Source: a virus
Virus record (IMG/VR): IMGVR_UViG_3300022939_000103
Coordinates: 1 to 27,553 of that record
Strand: one strand, 5' to 3'
DNA: 27,553 bases
Below, piece by piece: positions 7,217 through 20,674 of this stretch (positions within the stretch are counted from its first letter, which is position 1; each line of letters opens with the position of its first letter). The notes beneath the pieces are model-generated. The model was not told the origin of the DNA, made no database searches, and worked only from the letters and a program-made list of their open reading frames with translations. A program made the translations under genes and the position numbers.

Positions 7217-7299
7217 AGATGTTTCCTTAGTTTTTCGTATTGCTCTTCAGTGTGTATGCCTTTGCTATACTTAGAAACTTCATTAAGTTCCCCAGGCAT
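7213..7299 (-). CDS. Possible 28-aa miniprotein between queE and the next gene
   Basis: A short frame starts at the ATG at 7299 and ends in TGA, overlapping the next gene as ATGA. The peptide ends KYSKGIHTEEQYEKLRKHL, which looks protein-like, and it fills the 66-base gap after queE. It overlaps the queE end by 17 bases. The ribosome binding site is poor (GGAA touches the ATG), so it may depend on readthrough from queE. Evidence is limited to composition and junctions. Confidence 0.4.
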   Translation of the reverse strand: MPGELNEVSKYSKGIHTEEQYEKLRKHL

Positions 7300-8179
7300 T
7301 TCCGAATAGGCTGATGTGGAGTCTAGGGCTGAACCTCCACCCTCGTTCCATACAGAGGTTCGCCACCTCTTGTACGTTGAGCGTGTATTCTTCCGAACGT
7401 CCGCCAAGCGGCATAAGATATACTGGACATTCCACCCCGGCATCCCTGTAAAGCTGAACTGCTCTACCAACTTCATCAACATCGTCTTGATCAGCAACAA
7501 CAAACTTAAAGTACATATCAGCGCCATCCACGCAGGAATACTCACGAGCAACATCAGGCTTGATAGCATCACTCCAAGACTCGCCTGAAACAGAGAGTTT
7601 TGGGGAACACGAAAAAGTAACTTTAATTCTGTCATTGTTGTTGAGATAATTGTAGAAGTCGTCGTGTAACTGTTGTGTAGTGTTTGTTTCAATTGTGACA
7701 TTTTTTAAATCCTGCATGCGTGGATGTTCAAATAGTTCTACGTATAGTCGTTGCCACGCTAACAACGGCTCACCACCAGTTAAGATCAAATGTACATCTT
7801 GTCCATTATCCATAGTCCATTTACCCTCAGGGGTAAGTGAAAGTAAATGTTCTACTACTTCATCAATAGTAGCCAATTTGTTAAAGTCTTTGAACTCTGG
7901 ATAGATACTAGCATATGTATCACAACCTGTGTGTACAATAGGCAGGTCTTCAAACTTTTCAGTCTTTTCTACAATTCCGTCATCTAACAATGCTTTTACT
8001 TCTGCATTGTAGCGATTACCGTCTGCGTGTTGTTTCCAGCGATCACCTACGCTTTTATCAACACCAAAATTCATACAACGGAAGTTGCAACCGAATGTAC
8101 GTAGGAATACACTGGGCACTCCTACGTATTTACCTTCACCTTGTACTGAATAAAATGCTTCACTATATCTAAGTTTCAT
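7283..8179 (-). CDS. queE: 7-carboxy-7-deazaguanine synthase (radical SAM), phage variant
   Basis: 298 aa. QueE converts 6-carboxytetrahydropterin to 7-carboxy-7-deazaguanine (CDG), the base skeleton of preQ0 and queuosine. Support: FYSVQGEGKYVGVPSVFLRT (9-28), cluster Cys C31 and C35 in GCNFRCMNFG, the SAM-binding LTGGEPLL, and the C-terminus RLHISLFGNAWGT. The third cluster Cys is not at CX2C. It appears to be C86 in TGCDTYAS, equivalent to the WCDT of other QueE, after an insertion of about 48 residues. It overlaps the small upstream gene by 11 bases. It belongs with folE, yhhQ and dpdA 4-8 kb upstream. Confidence 0.9.
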   Translation of the reverse strand: MKLRYSEAFYSVQGEGKYVGVPSVFLRTFGCNFRCMNFGVDKSVGDRWKQHADGNRYNAEVKALLDDGIVEKTEKFEDLPIVHTGCDTYASIYPEFKDFNKLATIDEVVEHLLSLTPEGKWTMDNGQDVHLILTGGEPLLAWQRLYVELFEHPRMQDLKNVTIETNTTQQLHDDFYNYLNNNDRIKVTFSCSPKLSVSGESWSDAIKPDVAREYSCVDGADMYFKFVVADQDDVDEVGRAVQLYRDAGVECPVYLMPLGGRSEEYTLNVQEVANLCMERGWRFSPRLHISLFGNAWGT

Positions 8180-9707: not shown

Positions 9708-9868
9708 CCTTGCTGTGCCTTATGCTGTGCAATACTTGCTGCTTTTGCGAGCTCACTAAAACGATCTGCAATCATACGCATTTCACTTTCTGTTAAATTA
9801 GCAGCACCAAACTGCCCAACTGTGCGAGCAATATCGTGCAGTTTAATTACCATTTCACCATCAGTCAT
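9704..9868 (-). CDS. Small hypothetical protein, 54 aa
   Basis: 54 aa from the ATG at 9868 (MTDGEMVIKLHDIARTVGQF), with AAAGGAC before it. A longer frame to 10021 lacks a binding site and lies wholly inside the cytidylyltransferase gene, so I reject it. Predicted amphipathic helices (ESEMRMIADRFSELAKAAS). Function unknown. Confidence 0.7.
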   Translation of the reverse strand: MTDGEMVIKLHDIARTVGQFGAANLTESEMRMIADRFSELAKAASIAQHKAQQG

Positions 9869-10280
9869 TTTTTGTCCTTTCTGATACTCGCCTACGCAAG
9901 TCACTACTTGAAAAGCGGTGTTCACGTTTATTAAAATACAGCTGGATACCCCGCTTTTTGCAAATATCCTTGCCCGTAAAATCCTTTTGTTTGTACTCTT
10001 CGCCCATGATTTTAACATCAATATGGTACATTGTCAAGATGTCTTCTAAATCTTTTTCAGTACAATAAGGTACAATTTCATCTACATAACTTAATCCTTT
10101 AAGTTGGGTATAGCGTTCTACAATAGATTGAATAGGACTATTTTTACTAGCCCTATCAACACTTGGATCTAACTGTAACCCAACTAAAAGATAATCACAC
10201 TGGTCTCTTGCTTCACGTAGCATTTGTACGTGTCCTGCATGTAGCAAATCAAATGCACCAGCAGTGAACCCTACTATCAT
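9861..10280 (-). CDS. TagD-like cytidylyltransferase
   Basis: 139 aa, the typical length of single-domain glycerol-3-phosphate cytidylyltransferases. The nucleotide-binding motif GAFDLLHAGH is at residues 8-17, and the C-terminal SSSDLRRRV fits the family's S-S-[ST]-x-hR motif. Such enzymes join CTP and a phosphorylated alcohol or sugar. The substrate is unknown, and no partner polymerase is visible nearby. A second nucleotidyltransferase of the same superfamily is fused to a cupin at 13747-14571. Confidence 0.85.
   Translation of the reverse strand: MIVGFTAGAFDLLHAGHVQMLREARDQCDYLLVGLQLDPSVDRASKNSPIQSIVERYTQLKGLSYVDEIVPYCTEKDLEDILTMYHIDVKIMGEEYKQKDFTGKDICKKRGIQLYFNKREHRFSSSDLRRRVSERTKND
10009..10037 (-). 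promoter_or_regulatory. Possible internal promoter in the cytidylyltransferase gene
   Basis: Minus strand TTGACA (10037-10032), 17-bp spacer, TAAAAT (10014-10009, 5/6). It would feed the run of small genes starting at 9868. Coding constraints may explain it by chance. Confidence 0.3.
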
Positions 10281-10523
10281 TTAATCACCTATAAACTTAA
10301 TATTTGTAGCATTTAATAAATCTAGTAATTTACGTCTTGCTTGATCTTTTGTAGCGGCTGGTACCCATGCTTTCCCATATCCTAAAAGATCTTCTGCATC
10401 ACGTTCTAGTTCTAATTGAATATTACAATCAGTTGTTTTGTGCATACGTATTTGCATAGGAGTATTAAACTCTATAACATAAATTTGATCTTTTAGGATA
10501 AAAGGAATAACATTATCATTCAT
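10281..10523 (-). CDS. Hypothetical protein, 80 aa
   Basis: 80 aa, starting MNDNVIPFILKDQIYVIEF. N-terminal part beta-like, C-terminal part helical (KDQARRKLLDLLNA). It overlaps the phosphoribosyltransferase gene by 8 bases and abuts the cytidylyltransferase gene. There is no clear binding site; probably coupled to the gene before it. No function recognised. Confidence 0.65.
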   Translation of the reverse strand: MNDNVIPFILKDQIYVIEFNTPMQIRMHKTTDCNIQLELERDAEDLLGYGKAWVPAATKDQARRKLLDLLNATNIKFIGD

Positions 10524-11073
10524 AAGGATATACCAACCATACGTTATCTTCAGCTTTATTAACTTCGTCCCAGTGATAAGCTACTTCACCGAACTCACTA
10601 GATAGATTTTCAGTCATTACAGCAAATCTGACATTATTGCCCCATACAGTATCCCAATTTGGATTATCTGGCAAGCATCCACTTTGCCAATCTTGTTTGA
10701 TCCAGGCAAATGTAGCACCAGTGTCGTTGATGTCATCTACAATGAGAATGTTTTTCTTAACATCTGGGTGACTTTCTAGACTATTCCAAACGTTGTCTCT
10801 ATCCGGAACACTGACATATCCAAATGCATCTTCAGCCATCCACAGATTACTTTCACATCCGTCTTCACCATCAGATAAATCACGCAATTTAACTTTTAAT
10901 GTTTCCATACGGATACCAGTCTTGTGACTTAACAGTACTGCTAGTGGCAGGCCGCCACGTGTTAACCCTACAATATAATCAGGACGCCAATTGTCCTTAT
11001 ACATTTGCATTGCAATGCTGTTAGCGGCTGTTTCCACATCAGCCCAGGTATAAAACTTTTTAGGTATATTCAT
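10516..11073 (-). CDS. Type I phosphoribosyltransferase
   Basis: 185 aa. The PRPP-binding motif ILIVDDINDTGATF is near residues 108-121. YIVGLTRGGLPLAVLLSHKTG (roughly 33-53) forms the pyrophosphate loop region of Gpt/Hpt-like purine salvage enzymes. These transfer ribose-5-phosphate from PRPP to a base, or in some families act as regulators. The long insert before the PRPP loop (DGEDGCESNLWMAEDAFGY) is not typical, and the base specificity is unknown. AGAGGAC precedes the ATG. Confidence 0.82.
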   Translation of the reverse strand: MNIPKKFYTWADVETAANSIAMQMYKDNWRPDYIVGLTRGGLPLAVLLSHKTGIRMETLKVKLRDLSDGEDGCESNLWMAEDAFGYVSVPDRDNVWNSLESHPDVKKNILIVDDINDTGATFAWIKQDWQSGCLPDNPNWDTVWGNNVRFAVMTENLSSEFGEVAYHWDEVNKAEDNVWLVYPYE

Positions 11074-11363: not shown

Positions 11364-11395
11364 AAGGAAAGGGCCCGAAGGCCCTATCCTTTTTT
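11364..11395. terminator. Strong hairpin at the end of the DNA-modification operon
   Basis: The inverted repeat AGGGCC-CGAA-GGCCCT (11370-11385) extends, with one mismatch, to an 11-bp stem (11364-11391). Read on the minus strand, the loop is C(TTCG)G, the very stable tetraloop typical of T4-family terminators. The T-run (TTTTTT, 11390-11395) however follows the stem on the plus strand, while the minus side has only TTTCCTTGCC. It may terminate or process the yhhQ transcript, or stop antisense transcription. Confidence 0.65.
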
Positions 11396-11993
11396 ATTGT
11401 TCTCGTAATTTACCACTAATCAGTTTAAGTAGTATGCCATATGCTGGCAAGAACAAAACAAGTCCAACTACAATTTTAAGTACGACTTGCGAACCTGCAA
11501 TTTCCATCCAGTTAGCAGCCATATACTCGTCTGCACTATTATTAAACGCTACAGCAAAGAATGTATACGTGTCAATAATGTTGGCAACAACTGTTGACAA
11601 TGCTGGTGCAAGCCACCATGCACGGTAGCGTTCACGTAGGTATTGGAATACATATACATCAAGCATTGTGCCTACAGCATAAGCAGTTGCTGATGCAAAT
11701 CCAATACGTAGTGCTACACTTTCAGGAGCACCTTCTGCAAGTACTACAGCAATAGATCCAATAATTGCAAACGGATATGCTGCCGCAATTGTCGCTCGTG
11801 CAATACCTTTACCTAGCATACGAACAGTTAAGTCAGTTGCTAGGACAACGATTGGGAACGTAAACGCCGCCCAAGTAAGTTTAACACCTGCAATTTCTAC
11901 TGGAATTGCCACAAGTGCATTACTGATTACGATTACTACAACATGCAACAGTGCAAGTTTTAGCATCATACTTTTATCAATGTCTTTAAACAT
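11394..11993 (-). CDS. yhhQ: Queuosine-precursor transporter (YhhQ/VUT family)
   Basis: 199 aa with about six membrane helices, for example LALLHVVVIVISNALVAIPV (12-31). The stretch WAAFTFPIVVLATDLTVRM and the later ANIIDTYTFFAV are typical of the VUT family, whose member YhhQ imports preQ0 and preQ1. It lies 16 bases after folE in the same operon as dpdA, which supports a role in supplying 7-deazaguanine for DNA modification. AGAGG precedes the ATG. It ends at the strong hairpin. Confidence 0.85.
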   Translation of the reverse strand: MFKDIDKSMMLKLALLHVVVIVISNALVAIPVEIAGVKLTWAAFTFPIVVLATDLTVRMLGKGIARATIAAAYPFAIIGSIAVVLAEGAPESVALRIGFASATAYAVGTMLDVYVFQYLRERYRAWWLAPALSTVVANIIDTYTFFAVAFNNSADEYMAANWMEIAGSQVVLKIVVGLVLFLPAYGILLKLISGKLREQ

Positions 11994-12009
11994 ATTTTCC
12001 TCTTTCTAG

Positions 12010-12699
12010 TTAACGTGGTGCGAATTCTTGTTGTAGTTTAATGTTATCAAAGAATTCTTTTTTGCATCCTGGATCAGTATGGAAACTACCTTCCAGCACA
12101 GTTGTTTGTGTTAAACTACTGTGAGCCATAATGCCTCGATTCTCACAACAACCATGTGTTGCTTGAATATAAACAGCAACATTTTCACTTCCTGTTGCTG
12201 CCATTATTTCACGAGCAATATCATTTGCAAGTTCTTCTTGCAGCGTACCACGGCGAGCGCACCACTGTGCTATACGTGTATACTTGGATAAGCCGATCAA
12301 TTTCTCTGCCGCAATAATACCAATATATGCGACACCAGTAACTGGCTGATGATGGTGTGAACAAACACTTTTAAGTTCACTACGTACAACCAGCATGCCT
12401 TTGTATCCTTCTTCTACATGATTAGGAAAGGCAGTTGCATTAGGCTTGGGATCATATCGCCCAGCCATAAGTTCGTTAATATACATTTTTGCCAAACGGC
12501 GACCTGTGTCCATGCTGTTTGGATCTGTATGTCGATCAATAACTAAACTGTCAAGTACAGCTTCAAATTTAGGCGTAAGTTCTTCAATAAGACCTTCTTT
12601 ATCGCCTTTTTGCATTATTTCACTGATGTTATCACCAGCCCAATAACGTATTCCAGCGTCTTCAAGACGTTGTTTTAAAATTTCGGAAGTATTTCTCAT
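12010..12699 (-). CDS. folE: GTP cyclohydrolase I
   Basis: 229 aa. It converts GTP to dihydroneopterin triphosphate, the first step of 7-deazaguanine (and folate) synthesis. Zinc ligands by alignment with the family: C113 and H116 in CSHHHQPVTG, and C184 in THGCCENRG. The core LIGLSKYTRIAQWCARR and the following LQEEL match the family. It starts with ATGA overlapping the glycosyltransferase stop and is followed by the transporter. In this context it probably feeds the QueD-like and QueE steps. T4-like marine phages are known to carry folE. Confidence 0.93.
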   Translation of the reverse strand: MRNTSEILKQRLEDAGIRYWAGDNISEIMQKGDKEGLIEELTPKFEAVLDSLVIDRHTDPNSMDTGRRLAKMYINELMAGRYDPKPNATAFPNHVEEGYKGMLVVRSELKSVCSHHHQPVTGVAYIGIIAAEKLIGLSKYTRIAQWCARRGTLQEELANDIAREIMAATGSENVAVYIQATHGCCENRGIMAHSSLTQTTVLEGSFHTDPGCKKEFFDNIKLQQEFAPR

Positions 12700-13775
12700 G
12701 CACTAAGTTCCCTTTTCTTCAAAATATTGTTAATCATAACATTGCTATTTAGATATTTGTCTATCAAAATACGCTGTTGTTGTTTTATTAATACTGCATA
12801 CTTTTCTGGATTGTCGATACGTTCATTAATAAACTGTGTTAAGTTTTCACGATTTTCCTGATATGCTTCATAACTTTCAGTCCAAGCACTGGGATACTTA
12901 AACTCTGGCAAATACATTTCACGATAGCTAGCACGATCTGGAACAATAGGAATGGCTCCTGTTAGTACAGCTTCCATAACACTAATGCCCAAGTTTTCAT
13001 GTAGTGCGCAACTAAAGATTGCAACACTACCAGCCAGTGTTTCATAGTATTCTTGTTTGTTTAAATTCATATTCTGTGTAATTACCATATCATAATCTTC
13101 TGCCAAGTCTTCAGCAATTTCAGGCTGTTTATCAGCATTATAACGATGTGGCCACATAATACGCTTTTGCTTTTCTACAACTTGCAGTTCACACAAGCCG
13201 TCAATAATAAGCTCATGTGGTTGTCCACTGCGTACAGCTTTTGTGCTATACCCTTGTGGAATTTGCAAATTACGTAAAAACATTGTTTTATGAAATTCAG
13301 TTGCATAGTAGTTGTAATCACTACTATAGAACCAACTCTTTTCAGCCTCCCAGGGCCATGGCTTTTGCATCTTGTATCCCAATATGTCACTGGGATCATA
13401 AGCACCTGCATGCCAGATACTGTGTATTTCTACTGGAGTATCCAACAAATCACTCATGTATTTAATTGGTGTAATAATAAAGTTCCAAGCATCAGTTACT
13501 AAAAATTTGTCACCTGCCTTTACTTTTCCTTGACTGAACAAGCGACTTACTTCAGCCGCTTGTGTTGCTTTATATACATTAGTAGCACCAAAATCTAAAA
13601 ACGCACCCGCAGTGCGATTGTCTGGTTTAAAGTCTTCACCATCAATTGTTACAACTTTATAATCCAAATCACGTTCAGCAATCTTGCGTTCAAGCATTAC
13701 TGGAATATTGTCATACCATTGTTTTGTATAACGCTGGTCAATTGGCTCAATTGGAATAATCCAAATCGTATTCAT
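12696..13775 (-). CDS. GT-B glycosyltransferase next to dpdA
   Basis: 359 aa. The C-terminal half shows the donor-binding signature of GT-B enzymes: CALHENLGISVMEAV (256-270), then AIPIVPDRASYREM, the E-x7-E region. Upstream, RIMWPHRYNADKQPE (205-219) holds the Arg and Lys expected to bind the nucleotide diphosphate. This WPHR-x-x-x-[D]K-x-PE pattern and the HE-x-x-G-x-x-x-xEAV stretch resemble the tRNA-queuosine mannosyltransferase family (DUF3524/QTMAN), from memory. The N-terminal half is not recognisably DUF3524. Lying between the nucleotidyltransferase-cupin and folE, it may glycosylate the 7-deazaguanine in DNA. Alternatives are surface glycan or virion protein glycosylation. Confidence 0.82.
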   Translation of the reverse strand: MNTIWIIPIEPIDQRYTKQWYDNIPVMLERKIAERDLDYKVVTIDGEDFKPDNRTAGAFLDFGATNVYKATQAAEVSRLFSQGKVKAGDKFLVTDAWNFIITPIKYMSDLLDTPVEIHSIWHAGAYDPSDILGYKMQKPWPWEAEKSWFYSSDYNYYATEFHKTMFLRNLQIPQGYSTKAVRSGQPHELIIDGLCELQVVEKQKRIMWPHRYNADKQPEIAEDLAEDYDMVITQNMNLNKQEYYETLAGSVAIFSCALHENLGISVMEAVLTGAIPIVPDRASYREMYLPEFKYPSAWTESYEAYQENRENLTQFINERIDNPEKYAVLIKQQQRILIDKYLNSNVMINNILKKRELSA

Positions 13776-14571
13776 TCTTTTCTTCTTCCGTCATACCATA
13801 ATAAGGATCTACACCGTGTCTCTCAATATCTTCTTCGATACAGTTAGTTCCATATTGTATTTCTACTACTCTTACTTCTTTTTCAGTATTATTGCATAAT
13901 TGATGCCAAGTGTCAACTGGAATCTCCAGTGTATCGTGTTTATGTAATTCTACTGTTCTTGGGGTTTCTGGATCATCCAAGTTAACAGTTGCAACCCCAT
14001 AACTTACGTGCCAGTGTTCGCTACGTTCTGCATGTTTTTGCATACTGAGTTTTGCGCCTGGATTGACTGTTAATTCTTTAACTTTAACTTGTGGGCCATC
14101 ACTATGTAGGTTACGATAATATCCCCAAACACGCTCTGTTTTAGGAGATTTCCATTCTTGAAGAATCCAGCTACTACTATTCTTCTTGTCTTCGCCCCCT
14201 ACACCAAATTCAAACGTTAGCCGTTCGTCTTGAATACGCATTTCAGGGATATTATCGTTAGTGCGATCACCACCATTAGCAAAAATGATGTCGCTATAAC
14301 TGTACATATCTAGAACCTGTTGGATTGCATCACATGCACTGCCATCAGTGTCATCAAACTTAATGACACGATCTACACTTTTAATGTTTTCTACAATTTT
14401 TGACCTTTCTTCCCAGGGCATAAACTCTTGCCCCTTTTTCCGCTTTAGCCAATCATCGCTGTTAACACCAACAACAAGCATGTCACCAAGACGTCTTGCT
14501 GCATCAAAATATGCAATGTGTCCACTATGTAGTGGATCAAATCCACCAGTTACTAGAACAATACGGTTCAT
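13747..14571 (-). CDS. Nucleotidyltransferase-cupin fusion (sugar nucleotide enzyme)
   Basis: 274 aa with two domains. Residues 1-125 are a HldE/TagD-type nucleotidyltransferase: GGFDPLHSGH (9-18), AARRLGDMLVVGVNSDDW, KRKKG, and ANGGDR (98-103). Residues about 145-250 are a cupin like the C-terminal phosphomannose isomerase domain: GYYRNLHSDG, metal ligands in KHAERSEHWHV (H180, E184, H186 or H188), and DTWHQL (H223). A likely product is an activated sugar for the adjacent glycosyltransferase. The fusion swaps the usual mannose-1-phosphate guanylyltransferase for a cytidylyltransferase-type domain. The ATG overlaps the dpdA stop (TAATG); it overlaps the next gene by 29 bases. Confidence 0.83.
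   Translation of the reverse strand: MNRIVLVTGGFDPLHSGHIAYFDAARRLGDMLVVGVNSDDWLKRKKGQEFMPWEERSKIVENIKSVDRVIKFDDTDGSACDAIQQVLDMYSYSDIIFANGGDRTNDNIPEMRIQDERLTFEFGVGGEDKKNSSSWILQEWKSPKTERVWGYYRNLHSDGPQVKVKELTVNPGAKLSMQKHAERSEHWHVSYGVATVNLDDPETPRTVELHKHDTLEIPVDTWHQLCNNTEKEVRVVEIQYGTNCIEEDIERHGVDPYYGMTEEEKNEYDLDYSN
13888..13916 (-). promoter_or_regulatory. Possible internal promoter before the glycosyltransferase
   Basis: Minus strand TTGACA (13916-13911), 17-bp spacer, AATAAT (13893-13888, 5/6), inside the cupin coding region, 113 bases before the glycosyltransferase start. Confidence 0.35.
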
Positions 14572-16079
14572 TATACCTCCAGTGCTTCTAAAAACTCTTC
14601 TGCTGCTTCTTCTTGTTCAGCAGTCATTTCATCAAAGTCATCCAATAGTTTATCTTGTACTGCAAACAGATCATTAAAACTGTTTGTAGATGTTGCCAAA
14701 CTCTTTTGGCCATTAAAGTTAGCAAGCATAGGTGCTGCTTCTTCCAGTAGTGTCATAGGAGTTTCACTTTTAAACAGTTCTTCAATAAAGTTAACCATGT
14801 AAATGATATTACGTGGAACATATGGATCAAACTGTCGTTGCTTTTCCTGTTTAGGAGTCAGCTTCTCCCAGTGCTTGTGATTCGTATCAATAGTTGCTGC
14901 ACAGATATCAGTTAGTGCATTAGCACGTTGTACACTTTCAATATGCTGATACACATTGTGTGACATTAGCAAGAAATAGCTGAAACTATCCCAACTAGTT
15001 TTACCTTCTTTACCTACCTTGTTAAGCATACCTGGTGCATAGTGACAAATATCTCCAAGTGTCATACGCTCACCAATTGGCGATCCCCAGGGAAACGGAC
15101 GTTTACTGCCACTTAAACGTTTGTCGTCCATTGCTTTTTCCATAACATACATAAATCTATCGTTCTTATGAATATGTTGTGTATACAATGTACCGTTTGC
15201 TGTAGCCAAGAACGGCGAAGCACAGTCAAACATAACTTCAATATCACTGTTAACATGCTCACGCAGTGCACGTTTGATTGCAGTATATGCTGCTGCCCAC
15301 TCCAGTCTACTAATACCCAAGTAGTGGAGTACATCACGCTTACCACGCTCTAGTTGCTTGTCATCACGCATCTTAATAAGTGTACGCAATACAATGTTGA
15401 TATCATTTTTAGCACTACCACCAAAAGCAAACCCTTCCAAGTCATGCTTTTTCATAGTTTCATACCAGTGTTCTGCTTCAGCCCAGTTACGGCCCTGCAT
15501 AACATTTAGATACTTTGTCTGATACTTACGATTACGTTTAAACCACTCTACGTTAAAGTCTGTAAACTCCAAACACTGATTAAAACTTGTAATACCAGTG
15601 CGCTCAGTAAATGTAGGATCTGCTGCTAGTGTTGGAATATCCAGGATCATACTGTAGTCACCTGTATGTTCCAACCAGTTCAGGATCTTCTGACGTAGTG
15701 TGTCATCAGTTTTAAAGTTAGCCCAGTCACACTGGATAACGCCTTTAATAATCTGGAAACCACCACTATCACATAACATAAAACTGTTATTGCGATCACG
15801 GCCCTGTACCATTGCATCATCTACATTGGCTTTATCCAAGTTAAGTTGTGCGTGTCCTGCTGAATACAGCCCCCACTTATAACTATAATAAGCGTCTGGA
15901 TTAAGGAAGTTACAACCTTCAATACCTTGTTCAAATCCATCAGGAATACGATCAGCGGGCACTGCATTAGGATTGGCCCGCTGTTTTGCAATATAGTTGT
16001 TGTAGAACGTACTAATACTAGGCAGGAATACTGCATAGTCTTCATTACGTTCTGTTAAATTAATTTTAGTAGCTGTCAT
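14571..16079 (-). CDS. dpdA: DpdA-like 7-deazaguanine DNA transglycosylase
   Basis: 502 aa. It belongs to the tRNA-guanine transglycosylase superfamily. CDSGGFQI (103-110) holds the first catalytic Asp (D104); VMQGRNWAEAE (193-203) and FGGSAKND (219-226) match the substrate loop; MFDCASP (283-289) has the nucleophile Asp (D285). It is about 130 aa longer than tRNA TGTs, and I do not see the CxCxxC zinc site, as expected for phage DpdA rather than Tgt. DpdA proteins exchange guanine in DNA for preQ0 or related bases, which protects phage DNA from restriction. It lies between the clamp and the sugar enzyme, with AAGGAAG before the ATG. An acidic tail (EEAAEEFLEALEV) ends it. Confidence 0.87.
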   Translation of the reverse strand: MTATKINLTERNEDYAVFLPSISTFYNNYIAKQRANPNAVPADRIPDGFEQGIEGCNFLNPDAYYSYKWGLYSAGHAQLNLDKANVDDAMVQGRDRNNSFMLCDSGGFQIIKGVIQCDWANFKTDDTLRQKILNWLEHTGDYSMILDIPTLAADPTFTERTGITSFNQCLEFTDFNVEWFKRNRKYQTKYLNVMQGRNWAEAEHWYETMKKHDLEGFAFGGSAKNDINIVLRTLIKMRDDKQLERGKRDVLHYLGISRLEWAAAYTAIKRALREHVNSDIEVMFDCASPFLATANGTLYTQHIHKNDRFMYVMEKAMDDKRLSGSKRPFPWGSPIGERMTLGDICHYAPGMLNKVGKEGKTSWDSFSYFLLMSHNVYQHIESVQRANALTDICAATIDTNHKHWEKLTPKQEKQRQFDPYVPRNIIYMVNFIEELFKSETPMTLLEEAAPMLANFNGQKSLATSTNSFNDLFAVQDKLLDDFDEMTAEQEEAAEEFLEALEV

Positions 16080-16088
16080 ATTTCTTCC

Positions 16089-16832
16089 TTAAACTGTTAG
16101 TGCTGGAAGAATGTAATCATATTTGCCAATTCCACTATCAACACTAATCTGCAATGCACCACGCTTTGAGATCTGCATTACACAACTGCCACTCATTCCT
16201 AGTTTTAGAATGCCCAAAACTTGTGCTAGTGGCCAAGCATAGCCTTCAGTAAGCTCGCCATTTACATTTTTAGCAAATGTACGCTTACCAGTAAAACTAC
16301 CATCATCTGCACCTACTGTGATAACCAAATCACCGTTTTCAGTGCGTACTGTAAAGTTAGGCGCAACACCACTATAAATGCTTGCAACTTGTGTGAGTTC
16401 AGCAACTTTAGACTTTGTAGGTTCAAAAGTTACGTCCCATTCAACACCTTTAAATGTTACAGTTTGTAGTGTTTGATCAATGATCTCTTTGCTCATAAAG
16501 CGATAGCGGTCATTGTTACCAGATGCATCTTTAAACAACAAGTGATCTGGGGATTCAGTACCATTACGCTCACGCTTTACAACTTCTACAGTTGCATCAT
16601 CACCAGCATAGTTTGGCAGTTTACTAACACCACTTAGGAACCCCAAGTTACCCAAACCAAATTCGCCTGTAAAGTCAGGCTCAACATTGTGTAGTTTTGC
16701 TTTAAGGATAACTGTACGATCTGGATCCATAGCATCCAGTGTTGTGTCTGTTGATGTACCAGTTACCTTTACATTTTCAATAAAGCCAAGACCTGCTGTG
16801 TGCTTGACGATATCTGCAATAATGTCTTTCAT
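16089..16832 (-). CDS. gp45: DNA polymerase sliding clamp
   Basis: 247 aa (T4 gp45 is 228). This is the trimeric processivity ring for gp43, and in T4 also the mobile activator of late transcription. The C-terminal third (YAWPLAQVLGILKLGMSG, MQISKRGALQISVDSG, KYDYILPAL) matches T4-like clamps. It is the first gene behind the strong promoter at 16860-16888, with AGGAG before the ATG. Unlike T4, the polymerase lies upstream, not downstream, and dpdA follows directly. No clamp loader genes (gp44, gp62) are in the window. Confidence 0.88.
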   Translation of the reverse strand: MKDIIADIVKHTAGLGFIENVKVTGTSTDTTLDAMDPDRTVILKAKLHNVEPDFTGEFGLGNLGFLSGVSKLPNYAGDDATVEVVKRERNGTESPDHLLFKDASGNNDRYRFMSKEIIDQTLQTVTFKGVEWDVTFEPTKSKVAELTQVASIYSGVAPNFTVRTENGDLVITVGADDGSFTGKRTFAKNVNGELTEGYAWPLAQVLGILKLGMSGSCVMQISKRGALQISVDSGIGKYDYILPALTV

Positions 16833-16859
16833 TAGACTCTCCTATAAGTTATTGATTTT

Positions 16860-16888
16860 ATTATATGATGATATTTAGACCAAGTCAA
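16860..16888 (-). promoter_or_regulatory. Strong sigma70-like promoter of the clamp-dpdA operon
   Basis: Minus strand TTGACT (16888-16883, 5/6), 17-bp spacer, TATAAT (16865-16860, perfect). It lies between the terminator at 16932-16961 and the clamp gene, so it marks the start of a transcription unit that includes clamp, dpdA, sugar enzymes, folE and transporter. Confidence 0.8.
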
Positions 16889-16931: not shown

Positions 16932-16961
16932 AAAAAAGACGTCCCCTGAAGAGAGAACGCC
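16932..16961 (-). terminator. Intrinsic terminator of the polymerase operon
   Basis: Minus strand GGCGTTCTC (16961-16953), loop TCTTCA, GGGGACGTC (16946-16938): nine pairs including three G-T, followed by TTTTTT (16937-16932). It lies 11 bases after the stop of the 95-aa gene and before the clamp promoter. Confidence 0.75.
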
Positions 16962-16972
16962 AAGTTGATTTA

Positions 16973-17260
16973 TTAAATCCAGGGGTACTGAAATGTACCA
17001 ACGTGGATTTTAAGTTTTTTAGGGCTACGCTCAGCACTAAACTTAACTGAAACATCATATGTAATTGCGCTGTCGCGGTCACTACTATGAATTTCATAAT
17101 CCTTGATGTATCCGCCACGACGCAAGTCTGACAGATATGCATTAAATAATTTGTAAACTGGTCCGCTTTGTGACTTTTCTAATAAACCATCCCACGGAGC
17201 AATAATTTTCAGCAAATCATATTTTACATCATTAATGTTGATAAAATTATTACGAGCCAT
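16973..17260 (-). CDS. Conserved hypothetical protein, 95 aa
   Basis: 95 aa from the ATG at 17260 (MARNNFININDVKYDLLKI). GAGG in the last codons of the upstream gene is well spaced for it; ATGs further upstream are not. Predicted alpha/beta with YLSDLRRGGYIKDYEI and the basic RSPKKLKIHVG near the C-terminus. I recall relatives in T4-like marine phages; function unknown. Last gene before the terminator. Confidence 0.7.
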   Translation of the reverse strand: MARNNFININDVKYDLLKIIAPWDGLLEKSQSGPVYKLFNAYLSDLRRGGYIKDYEIHSSDRDSAITYDVSVKFSAERSPKKLKIHVGTFQYPWI

Positions 17261-17261
17261 C

Positions 17262-17639
17262 TTATGCCTCAAAATTGATTGTTGCGCCATTCTCGCCATC
17301 CTCACTGACAGTGATAGTTACTTCACGGCCTGGATAACGAGCACTAATTTGTTCATACAAATCATCTGCAATCATTTCACAGGATTTGTAATCAAGTTGT
17401 ATAATACCATCACCATACAACGACTCTAACCAGCGTTTAAACTGGATAAATTCAATGTCACGATCGTCATGAAATACTTCAATCTCGACTTTGAAATGAA
17501 ACATATGTCTGTGTGGGTAACCAAGGAAACTCACATCATACATATCGCCAGTAGCAAGTTTAGGATCTTCTAGTGCTGCTGGATATTTGTGGATGCCTTC
17601 TTTCTGAAAGGTAACCCAAATTTTACTTTTCTTCTTCAT
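17262..17639 (-). CDS. Divergent QueD/PTPS-like protein
   Basis: 125 aa, the size of 6-pyruvoyl/6-carboxytetrahydropterin synthases (T-fold). Three His in the right order could bind zinc: H17 in GIHKYP and H43/H45 in YPHRHMFHF. EFIQFKRWLESLY matches the family's 'IDF-x-x-LK' helix, SCEMIADDLYEQI the 'TSEN-x-x' helix, and E113 in VSEDG the substrate-binding Glu. However, the catalytic Cys between the His groups is absent, and the usual DH pair reads D83-Y84. It could be a QueD with altered chemistry or a non-catalytic relative. QueD would be the missing step between FolE and QueE. Confidence 0.5.
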   Translation of the reverse strand: MKKKSKIWVTFQKEGIHKYPAALEDPKLATGDMYDVSFLGYPHRHMFHFKVEIEVFHDDRDIEFIQFKRWLESLYGDGIIQLDYKSCEMIADDLYEQISARYPGREVTITVSEDGENGATINFEA

Positions 17640-18031: not shown

Positions 18032-20674
18032 TTATCCAAACTCAAACAAGTCACTGAACGTGTTCTTGTCATGAGCACTACGCAAGTCCCACTTTAGTAC
18101 ACCTAAAAGGTTTTCAATCTTTTTTGTAATAATTGCGTCTTCCATTGCTTCGTCATCAAAAGGCAGTTCCTTAAACCAGTCTGGTATACGCTTTTCGTCA
18201 GTGGGAATACCAATACTTGTCATTTTAAGCGGATTGTCTTTTAGTTTACAAACGATAGTTTTCATACCGTCAGTAATCTCCATACTATAGGCATCGCTAT
18301 TCATTTTGCGAAGTCTATTGTAATTAATTGCAGCCATTGCATGCCCTACCCCACACTTACCAGTCTTGCTATATATAGCAGTGTGATTGGTTAGGTTGTT
18401 AACCCGCTTGGGTGTACCTTTTTCCCAACTGGGCATATTACGGAATGGTTTTCTAAACTCTTTAATGCGTTCAATTACAGCATTTTCACCTCGACCTGTC
18501 AGTGTCATAACAAGCAATTCGTGTAAAAATTCCTGCATAAACTTTGGCGTATCACTACGCTTGAGATCTAGGCCCATTGCTTTAATTTTACCTGGCTTGC
18601 CATCAGTATCTTCACGGAAGCCTTCGTTATCATATACAAGGATAGCATAACGCTTTTTAGTAATAAAGATACCAGCAACGCCAACAATCTCTCTACCAGC
18701 AGCAATAATGCTACCAAATTCACTTGGACAATTGTGTGCCTGATTCATATATGTTGGAAATGTTTCATTTGCCGCTTCACATACAGCTTCATAGTATTCA
18801 GTAATCTTATCACGTGTCCATTCCAGATCACCGTTTTCAATTTGCTCTTTAAGTATAGGATATGCACTAAAGTAAACAGAGTCAGTATCACCATATATAA
18901 TGCTTGGGCCAGTGTGATCATATGTGCCTTCAATCACACGATTAACTTCTGCACTCATGTGACGTGCAATACAGCGTCCTGTTAGTGTAGTACTCTGTCC
19001 TAGTCGCTGATCAAAGAACCTACAGCCAGGATTTAGTAGCGCACCATACAAACTGTTCAAGTTAATCTTTTTAACCAGTTGTCGCTTATCCCAGAACGCA
19101 AACTTTTCATCATCTACACCTTTTTGCTCTTTTGCTTTTTTCTGTAGTTCTTTACGTTCTGCATACCACTGTTCTAGTAGTCCAGGAATAACGCCCTTAA
19201 CATCATGACGGAAAATAGTACCGTTAGCACTAAAGATCCAGGGCTGTCCGCTCAGGAATATCAAGTCATAAATCTCAGCACCTGTTGCCTCCAGTGTCTC
19301 ACCATTCTCAAAATCAACAAACAACATTGTTTCTCGATCTTTAGCCATAACAAGTTCATACTCTGGGCATGCAAACTTACCTTCCCATGCTTCTGAAACT
19401 GTTTTAAACTGTGTGAGCATTTCACGAGTAAAACTGTGTCTCACTTGTCCAACAATAGTTTCTGTGCTCATGTTACCTGCACGTAGGATACTGGGATACA
19501 GACTGTTCAAGTCCATACTAGCGATCCACTCATGCATACCTTTTACTGGTGTTGCAACATATGCACCAGCAGCTTGTGTGTTACCTTCATGGTTACGCTT
19601 ATCAGGTACCTGCATACCACGAGCATGTGCCGCATTAATGATCGCTTGATCTGTCTGTGCAACCGCACCCATTGTTGTCTGTAGCAACACTGTGTTAGAG
19701 TGTGCAAGTACGTTAGCCAAATCAATAAACTGTAGTTTTTTGTCTAGTTTTACAAGTAGATCAACGTCTTGTCTGTTATAACCAATAAACTTTTCAAAGT
19801 CATTGTTGTATAACTGATCCAGTGTACCTTCATAGTCAACTTTTGTTTCGCCCAGTTCATATTCGCCAATGGCATCCAAACTGTAGCTGTGCATTTCATG
19901 ATATGTATACTTACGATACAGTTGCAAGTAATCCAAGTGCACACGCCCTACTGTATCAAAAGTCTCTTGTGTTTTACCATAACTGATGTATTCACGCCGC
20001 TTGGGATATTTGTTCCATAAACAGAAGCGTCTAGTATGCTCTTTACCAAGCACTCTAGCAACACGATTAACCATGTAGGGAATATCAAAGCCTTCACTGT
20101 TCCAACCAGTCATTACATCTGCATCGTCAATAAGATCTAGGAATGTACCTAGCAAATCTTCTTCACTTTCCATAAGCAGTGTATCTGGAAACTTGTCTAC
20201 AATCTTTTGTGCTTGCTCTTGATTAAGTGTTTTAGGTGCTATCGCTAAACAAATTGTACGCCCTAACCAATTTAAATGTACTGCGATTGCTGTAACTGGA
20301 TTAAACGGATCACTAGGATCTGCAAAGCCCAAGTCTTTGTTAAAGTCAACTTCAATATCGAAAAAAGCAATGTTTAGTTCAGGCGCATCTGCTTCCAGAT
20401 AGTTCTCCGCCAAACAACGGAACACTGGATTCATATCACTTTCAAACAATTGCTTTTGACTGTGTATTTTCTTTTCACGGTTAAATGCTTTGCCGTTCGT
20501 GCATACTACACGCTCTAACGGCTCCCCCCAGATACTTTTAAATTTGCCACGTGGATCTGGATAGTAAAATACATAACGTGCAGGATATTGTAAGTACTTA
20601 CGCTTGCCATCCTTACGCTCTACAATATTAATAATGTCACGATCTCTATCAATGATACCGTCTACATAACTCAT
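18032..20674 (-). CDS. gp43: DNA polymerase, T4 gp43 family B
   Basis: 880 aa (T4 gp43 is 898). Proofreading exonuclease motifs: FFDIEVD (104-110), GWNSEGFDIPYM (190-201), YNRQDVDLL (299-307). Polymerase motifs: MDLNSLYPSI (387-396), LNSLYGALLNPG (motif B region) and YGDTDSVYF (motif C, two catalytic Asp). The C-terminus NTFSDLFEFG resembles the clamp-binding tail of T4 polymerase. All motifs are intact and the frame is full length. It starts with ATGA overlapping the membrane protein gene. Confidence 0.97.
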   Translation of the reverse strand: MSYVDGIIDRDRDIINIVERKDGKRKYLQYPARYVFYYPDPRGKFKSIWGEPLERVVCTNGKAFNREKKIHSQKQLFESDMNPVFRCLAENYLEADAPELNIAFFDIEVDFNKDLGFADPSDPFNPVTAIAVHLNWLGRTICLAIAPKTLNQEQAQKIVDKFPDTLLMESEEDLLGTFLDLIDDADVMTGWNSEGFDIPYMVNRVARVLGKEHTRRFCLWNKYPKRREYISYGKTQETFDTVGRVHLDYLQLYRKYTYHEMHSYSLDAIGEYELGETKVDYEGTLDQLYNNDFEKFIGYNRQDVDLLVKLDKKLQFIDLANVLAHSNTVLLQTTMGAVAQTDQAIINAAHARGMQVPDKRNHEGNTQAAGAYVATPVKGMHEWIASMDLNSLYPSILRAGNMSTETIVGQVRHSFTREMLTQFKTVSEAWEGKFACPEYELVMAKDRETMLFVDFENGETLEATGAEIYDLIFLSGQPWIFSANGTIFRHDVKGVIPGLLEQWYAERKELQKKAKEQKGVDDEKFAFWDKRQLVKKINLNSLYGALLNPGCRFFDQRLGQSTTLTGRCIARHMSAEVNRVIEGTYDHTGPSIIYGDTDSVYFSAYPILKEQIENGDLEWTRDKITEYYEAVCEAANETFPTYMNQAHNCPSEFGSIIAAGREIVGVAGIFITKKRYAILVYDNEGFREDTDGKPGKIKAMGLDLKRSDTPKFMQEFLHELLVMTLTGRGENAVIERIKEFRKPFRNMPSWEKGTPKRVNNLTNHTAIYSKTGKCGVGHAMAAINYNRLRKMNSDAYSMEITDGMKTIVCKLKDNPLKMTSIGIPTDEKRIPDWFKELPFDDEAMEDAIITKKIENLLGVLKWDLRSAHDKNTFSDLFEFG

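Follow-up and report, generated by a model that had tools for sequence, protein, structure and literature searches.

Does a phage that exchanges guanine in its DNA for a 7-deazaguanine go on to decorate the inserted base with a sugar? The question is raised by IMG/VR virus record IMGVR_UViG_3300022939_000103 (the window, meaning the whole stretch of 27,553 nucleotides that was analysed), in which genes for a DpdA-type DNA guanine transglycosylase and a glycosyltransferase (GT) lie in one closely packed run. This 27.5 kb record matches a 50 kb IMG/VR contig that is itself a fragment. An initial annotation of the window had proposed that the phage inserts a 7-deazaguanine into its DNA and then glycosylates it. 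We find that the GT gene, dpdA and a gene for a QueD-fold protein are linked in a near-obligate manner. The GT–DpdA linkage is recovered in both search directions and in phages as well as bacterial chromosomes, and it strongly supports the proposal. It is probable that DpdA inserts the 7-deazaguanine and that the GT then glycosylates the base in DNA, as a phage hypermodification module. We also lean, somewhat more cautiously, towards a widespread and undescribed class of sugar-bearing 7-deazaguanine DNA that is marked by the DpdA/QueD-fold/GT4 trio, carries phage-specific sugars and occurs in jumbo phages, marine phages and alphaproteobacterial chromosomal islands.

Viral loci were drawn with a GT profile (80 loci) and with a DpdA profile (80 loci, 74 of them new). 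Linkage ratios refer to loci with enough flanking sequence, and dereplication was at 80% DpdA identity. DpdA is found at 46 of 48 viral GT loci and the GT at 50 of 51 DpdA loci, always on the same strand. Homologs of the GT are thus not equally common in phages without dpdA, which the initial annotation had named as the outcome that would speak against its proposal. DpdA, the GT and the QueD-fold gene occur together at 112 of 114 DpdA loci, and 68 of the 70 dereplicated DpdA lineages hold both the GT and the QueD-fold gene. The two GT loci that have no DpdA nearby are L139 and L157; the genome of L157 encodes a DpdA at another place, and the same holds for Sinorhizobium phage Phosso. The linkage persists through changes in gene order and in DpdA type: one GT family accompanies two distant types, that of the window and that of phages ACP17 and X1, which is related to DpdA2 of phage nt-1. 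A lineage without the GT (L205, L206, L214 and L234) keeps DpdA, FolE, a phosphoribosyltransferase (PRT) and the clamp, while the QueD-fold gene and sugar enzymes are both missing from the neighbourhood. This joint absence couples the GT, the QueD-fold gene and the sugar enzymes. The same lineage provides a naturally occurring reference for a base that bears no sugar.

The pair is also found outside phages. A search of 84,980 bacterial and archaeal genomes with the GT profile returned 19 loci, 18 of them with DpdA adjacent; some of the 19 are phage contigs in metagenome-assembled genomes. In Magnetospirillum, Devosia, Aurantimonas, Azospirillum and others, GT and DpdA stand in a stretch with no phage family B DNA polymerase (PolB) or clamp. 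These chromosomal islands, several of them alphaproteobacterial, often include the QueD-fold gene, and the Devosia locus adds a Vut_1/YhhQ-like gene and a resolvase. The Magnetospirillum loci (L283, L284 and L286–L288) carry GT, QueD-fold gene and DpdA, together with PTPS in L284; genes for a CoiA-like nuclease and an integrase lie next to them, and the loci may be an island for DNA modification in bacteria.

Among 50,697 phage records, 20 were matched by the GTs of the window and of ACP17. DpdA and the QueD-fold gene are carried by 11 Wroclawvirus records (including Paride, PA5oct, MIJ3 and Callisto), ACP17, X1, Phosso and Synechococcus phage BUCT-ZZ01, while four other records are distant (22–25% identity). 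BUCT-ZZ01 holds QueE, a guanine PRT, QueD, FolE, a second GT4, DpdA, the QueD-fold gene and the GT in one run. Vibrio phage 2.275.O has clamp, DpdA, YhhQ and FolE, with no such GT in the stretch. The distant GT of Xanthomonas phage PhiXhv-15, one of those four records, was considered as a counter-example and set aside, since the genome encodes a QueC-domain protein next to the GT and, elsewhere, a DpdA-like open reading frame. In this phage (L261, 5822–9056) a BshB-like deacetylase also lies beside the GT, and the arrangement is perhaps a separate sugar–deazaguanine design.

The AlphaFold2 model of the GT (pLDDT 94.6) is predicted with confidence to have a GT4 fold in which the residues that handle the nucleotide sugar are conserved. 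The GT-B fold of the model matches GT4 enzymes across its full length, with BshA at E 6e-10 and GT4 enzymes at Z 26–27 over about 320 residues. Identity to BshA and the other GT4 enzymes is only about 11%, but the R-x4-K and E-x7-E residues are shared: in 44 homologs R211-x4-K216 and E268 are invariant and position 260 is Glu in 38 and Asp in 6. The only PDB match obtained by sequence profile was marginal and disappeared with a deeper profile.

The initial annotation had identified DpdA, FolE and YhhQ, and these assignments are upheld by profile comparison (DpdA) and by family models (FolE and YhhQ). The YhhQ frame additionally matches NF008406 at E 5e-57, which is under the cut-off of that model. 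No Pfam model reaches the DpdA protein, which is weakly matched by TGT models (TGT superfamily model, E 8e-4). PF01702 gave sub-threshold matches alone on the module genomes, and DpdA membership was therefore judged by comparing profiles with hhalign. The window DpdA profile aligns with a profile containing DpdA2 of nt-1 at E 1.9e-7 and with TGT-domain phage proteins, one of them over the Pfam cut-off, at E 3.3e-11. Residues D104, S105, G106, G107 and Q109 are invariant. Judged by its sequence, the window protein is a divergent TGT/DpdA; DpdA2 of nt-1 belongs to a DNA-modification family named in PMC6884629. PDB sequence-profile searches with DpdA and with the clamp gave no match.

Which base would be inserted is suggested by the synthesis genes. 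FolE and QueE, two enzymes of 7-carboxy-7-deazaguanine (CDG) synthesis, are both present in the window, and 18 of the 19 module genomes give a strong QueE match. QueC has no convincing match in the 19 module records, which include four isolates (one partial match lies just over the cut-off), nor in BUCT-ZZ01; CDG or a compound derived from it, rather than preQ0, is therefore the probable base. DpdA phages that do have QueC (nt-1 and Ps15) lack this GT. As it is the branch lacking QueC that has the GT, the base should again be CDG or its product. QueE, the QueD-fold gene, the PRT and the absence of QueC had been missed by the initial annotation, and together they shift the likely base from a preQ0 type to a CDG type. 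In Menderavirus Ps15 (L268, 3020–4270) a myo-inositol-1-phosphate synthase gene lies within the FolE–QueC–TGT–QueE cluster.

The QueD-fold protein belongs by sequence to a PHROG of unknown function. Its AlphaFold2 model (pLDDT 95.6) finds E. coli QueD (PDB entry 4ntk) as best PDB match at E 3e-5, both being T-folds. Unlike E. coli QueD it escapes the PTPS Pfam model, and several phages carry a QueD in addition to it; the PTPS model matches in 11 of 19 module genomes and nowhere in the window's own 50 kb contig. The gene is distributed among phages with QueE and no convincing QueC, which would fit DpdL, an enzyme to which a role as CDG decarboxylase is reportedly assigned by prediction. The protein may thus be DpdL, but it may equally be QueD or something new. 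Bacterioferritin (PDB profile, E about 0.1) and photolyase were dismissed as identities after modelling.

The sugar-nucleotide enzymes of the module differ from phage to phage. At least one cluster of such enzymes is present at 92 of 148 GT loci: epimerase/dehydratase at 27, two groups of oxidoreductases at 27 and 26, UDP-glucose dehydrogenase at 16, aminotransferase at 11 and cytidylyltransferase/cupin at 43. The cytidylyltransferase/isomerase of the window is over the cut-off for both of its domains (PF01467, 59 bits; PF01050, 72.3 bits against a cut-off of 23.6). It adjoins dpdA in 12 of 70 lineages, and dpdA is missing from the surroundings of 79 close homologs. The initial annotation pointed to conserved linkage of both sugar genes with dpdA as a check; such linkage holds for the GT, whereas the cytidylyltransferase/isomerase is an optional, loosely linked part. 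Its loci were considered as controls lacking dpdA (none of the 17 with flank has it) and rejected: the sole near-complete genome in this set encodes DpdA and GT at another place, so that the control is valid for the neighbourhood only. In a 219 kb phage genome (the record of L067, G024, 192403–197120; L292) this gene lies far from the DpdA–GT pair. A 174-amino-acid family with no Pfam or PHROG match (8277–8801 in L180, and 76 other loci) often follows dpdA at loci that are without the cytidylyltransferase/isomerase.

These components suggest the following order of events. FolE and QueE would make CDG, with QueD activity coming from the QueD-fold protein, a phage PTPS protein or the host; alternatively, the QueD-fold protein might process CDG. 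DpdA would replace guanines of the replicated DNA with the 7-deazaguanine. Using a nucleotide sugar as donor, the GT4 enzyme would glycosylate the base once it is inserted or, possibly, while it is still free. The sugar would be supplied through the cytidylyltransferase/isomerase, or elsewhere through epimerases, dehydrogenases and aminotransferases, and may vary by phage. The PRT, present in 42 of 70 DpdA lineages and annotated as xanthine-guanine type in the dpdA run of BUCT-ZZ01, recurs with DpdA in a way that suggests salvage, and would recycle the guanine that DpdA releases. Protection from restriction is the expected benefit. What the sequences show is the identity of the genes, a QueE with no convincing QueC, and the near-obligate linkage of GT, QueD-fold gene and DpdA; DNA as the substrate, the site and type of the glycosidic bond, the identity of the sugar, the guanine salvage and the protection are inferred.

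Several points weigh against glycosylation of the inserted base. The sugar on DNA is a prediction from gene content and modelled structures, and the modelled GT fold does not by itself specify the acceptor. CDG offers a carboxylate and 7-deazaguanine offers carbon 7 alone; a deazaguanine with a plain C7-H or a carboxylate would be unusual as acceptor, and none of the enzymes identified would make a hydroxyl. The 416 kb genome of L139 has the GT, and the profile finds no DpdA in it. Some phages, for example Cellulophaga phage phiST, have the QueD-fold gene while lacking both this GT and a profile-detected DpdA. Most loci are metagenomic fragments.

The alternative that survives best, although unlikely, is that the base stays 7-carboxy- or plain 7-deazaguanine and that the GT glycosylates another base or target of the phage. 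The presence of QueE and the failure to find QueC fit this, and dCDG and dDG are reportedly found in phages. As to another base, thymidylate synthase-like genes are needed for 5-hydroxymethylcytosine and 5-hydroxymethyluracil; such genes, hydroxymethylases included, are present in only 6 of 19 records, so these bases are not a general acceptor. This alternative also sits poorly with a GT that follows DpdA into bacterial chromosomes.

It is improbable that the acceptor of the GT is instead a small molecule, either a pterin or the free deazaguanine, produced by FolE together with the QueD-fold enzyme, with DpdA incidental. The combination of FolE, a QueD/PTPS-fold protein and a GT4 does resemble the cyanobacterial biopterin glucoside pathway, and the structural matches of the GT include a tetrahydrobiopterin glucosyltransferase (rank 33, Z 22.0), but as one of many GT4 enzymes. 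The bacterial islands hold GT and DpdA without FolE nearby, and pairing with DpdA in 68 of 70 lineages would not be predicted.

We give little credence to the idea that DpdA and the GT act on tRNA to yield a glycosylated queuosine-like nucleoside. Tgt is a tRNA enzyme, and the existence of glycosyl-queuosine enzymes in animals demonstrates that a sugar can be added to a deazaguanine nucleoside. The homologs in X1 and Menderavirus are annotated as tRNA-ribosyltransferases. However, the window DpdA is divergent and related to DpdA2 of the DNA-modification family (PMC6884629), replication genes are its neighbours in phages, and QueA and QueG did not turn up, though no search was aimed at them.

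It is very improbable that the GT and sugar enzymes serve surface polysaccharides or host-directed products and lie beside dpdA by chance or through shared early expression: sugar clusters of cyanophages have been interpreted in this way (PMC7824862), but the linkage outlasts changes in gene order and in DpdA type and holds in chromosomes, and the PolB relatives Atu_ph07 and 121Q are absent from the GT and DpdA matches.

Table 1. Genes and signals in and around the gene run of the window.
Feature	Position	Strand	Basis
PolB, family B DNA polymerase, module neighbour	18032-20674	-	phrog_262, E 1e-199
QueD-fold (T-fold) protein, 125 aa	17262-17639	-	HRH and KSCEM motifs; AlphaFold2
Conserved 110-aa gene between QueD-fold gene and clamp	16973-17305	-	homologs in most close relatives
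Intrinsic terminator hairpin 5' of promoter	16938-16961	-	z -5.1; U tract
Sigma-70-like promoter, TTGACT-17-TATAAT	16860-16888	-	hexamers 11/12
Sliding clamp (probable)	16089-16832	-	41% identity to annotated clamp of Sinorhizobium phage Phosso
DpdA-type DNA guanine transglycosylase	14571-16079	-	DSGGFQ signature; profile comparison
Cytidylyltransferase fused to type II mannose-6-phosphate isomerase cupin	13747-14571	-	PF01467 and PF01050
GT4-type glycosyltransferase (GT), DpdA partner	12696-13775	-	AlphaFold2 model; structural matches; residues
FolE, GTP cyclohydrolase I	12010-12699	-	PF01227, E 1e-38
YhhQ-type (Vut_1) preQ0/preQ1 transporter	11394-11993	-	PF02592, E 1e-24; TIGR00697 over cut-off
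Stable UUCG hairpin past yhhQ	11364-11395	-	z -2.6; non-canonical as terminator
6-oxopurine phosphoribosyltransferase (PRT)	10516-11073	-	PF00156; purine PRT 1vdm, E 8.5e-24
Second, stand-alone cytidylyltransferase	9861-10280	-	PF01467, E 2e-15
QueE, 7-carboxy-7-deazaguanine synthase	7283-8179	-	phrog_2076, E 6e-52

The six open reading frames from clamp to yhhQ are arranged as the initial annotation described, tightly packed on one strand, with successive junctions of 9 nt, a TAATG overlap, a 29 nt overlap, an ATGA overlap and 16 nt. The promoter placed behind a terminator is borne out as well: the upstream hairpin has a U tract, and TTGACW–TATAMT is kept at the same spot before the clamp in five relatives (L083, L089, L092, L094 and L099). 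Further 11/12 sites are present in the scanned 7.5 kb, and the hexamers alone are not rare. The limits of the six-gene operon fared less well. The hairpin past yhhQ is stable but is not followed by a good U tract on the minus strand, so that it need not end the operon, and the run is wider than six genes, with the QueD-fold gene upstream and PRT, cytidylyltransferase and QueE downstream. No tRNA or Rfam element was found in the window.

The clamp adjoins PolB in most loci, and its probable identity follows from the annotation of a homolog and from position. The suggestion that the clamp makes modification follow replication derives from synteny and finds no specific support, the bacterial islands holding GT and DpdA without PolB or clamp.

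If correct, the proposed glycosylation would bring together base swapping by a transglycosylase and decoration with sugars, which are two classes of DNA hypermodification. It would bear on how phages respond to restriction and Cas nucleases, and on the role of the similar islands in bacterial chromosomes. The gene signature points to isolates, namely BUCT-ZZ01 (host Synechococcus elongatus PCC 7942), the Paride/PA5oct group, ACP17 and Phosso. No published account of the DpdA–GT pair was found in the literature searched, which does not prove absence, as key works may lie outside it. For PA5oct, an isolate that carries the DpdA–GT–QueD-fold trio as in the module, synthesis and incorporation of deazaguanine have been noted by comparative genomics, with no GT linked to them in the available part of that account (PMC7824862).

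With the DpdA systems of phages 9g, CAjan and nt-1 (Hutinet 2019, PMC6884629) the module has in common a DpdA-type transglycosylase, FolE, QueE and YhhQ. It differs from them in having no convincing QueC, in having the QueD-fold gene, and in the GT4 and sugar enzymes that are tied to DpdA. The glucosylated 5-hydroxymethylcytosine of phage T4 is similar to what is proposed here in that a modified base in DNA receives a sugar after replication. The T4 glucosyltransferase is not among the structural matches listed for the GT, and the route to the modified base is different: in T4 cytosine is replaced at the nucleotide level, whereas in the module a transglycosylase would swap guanine.

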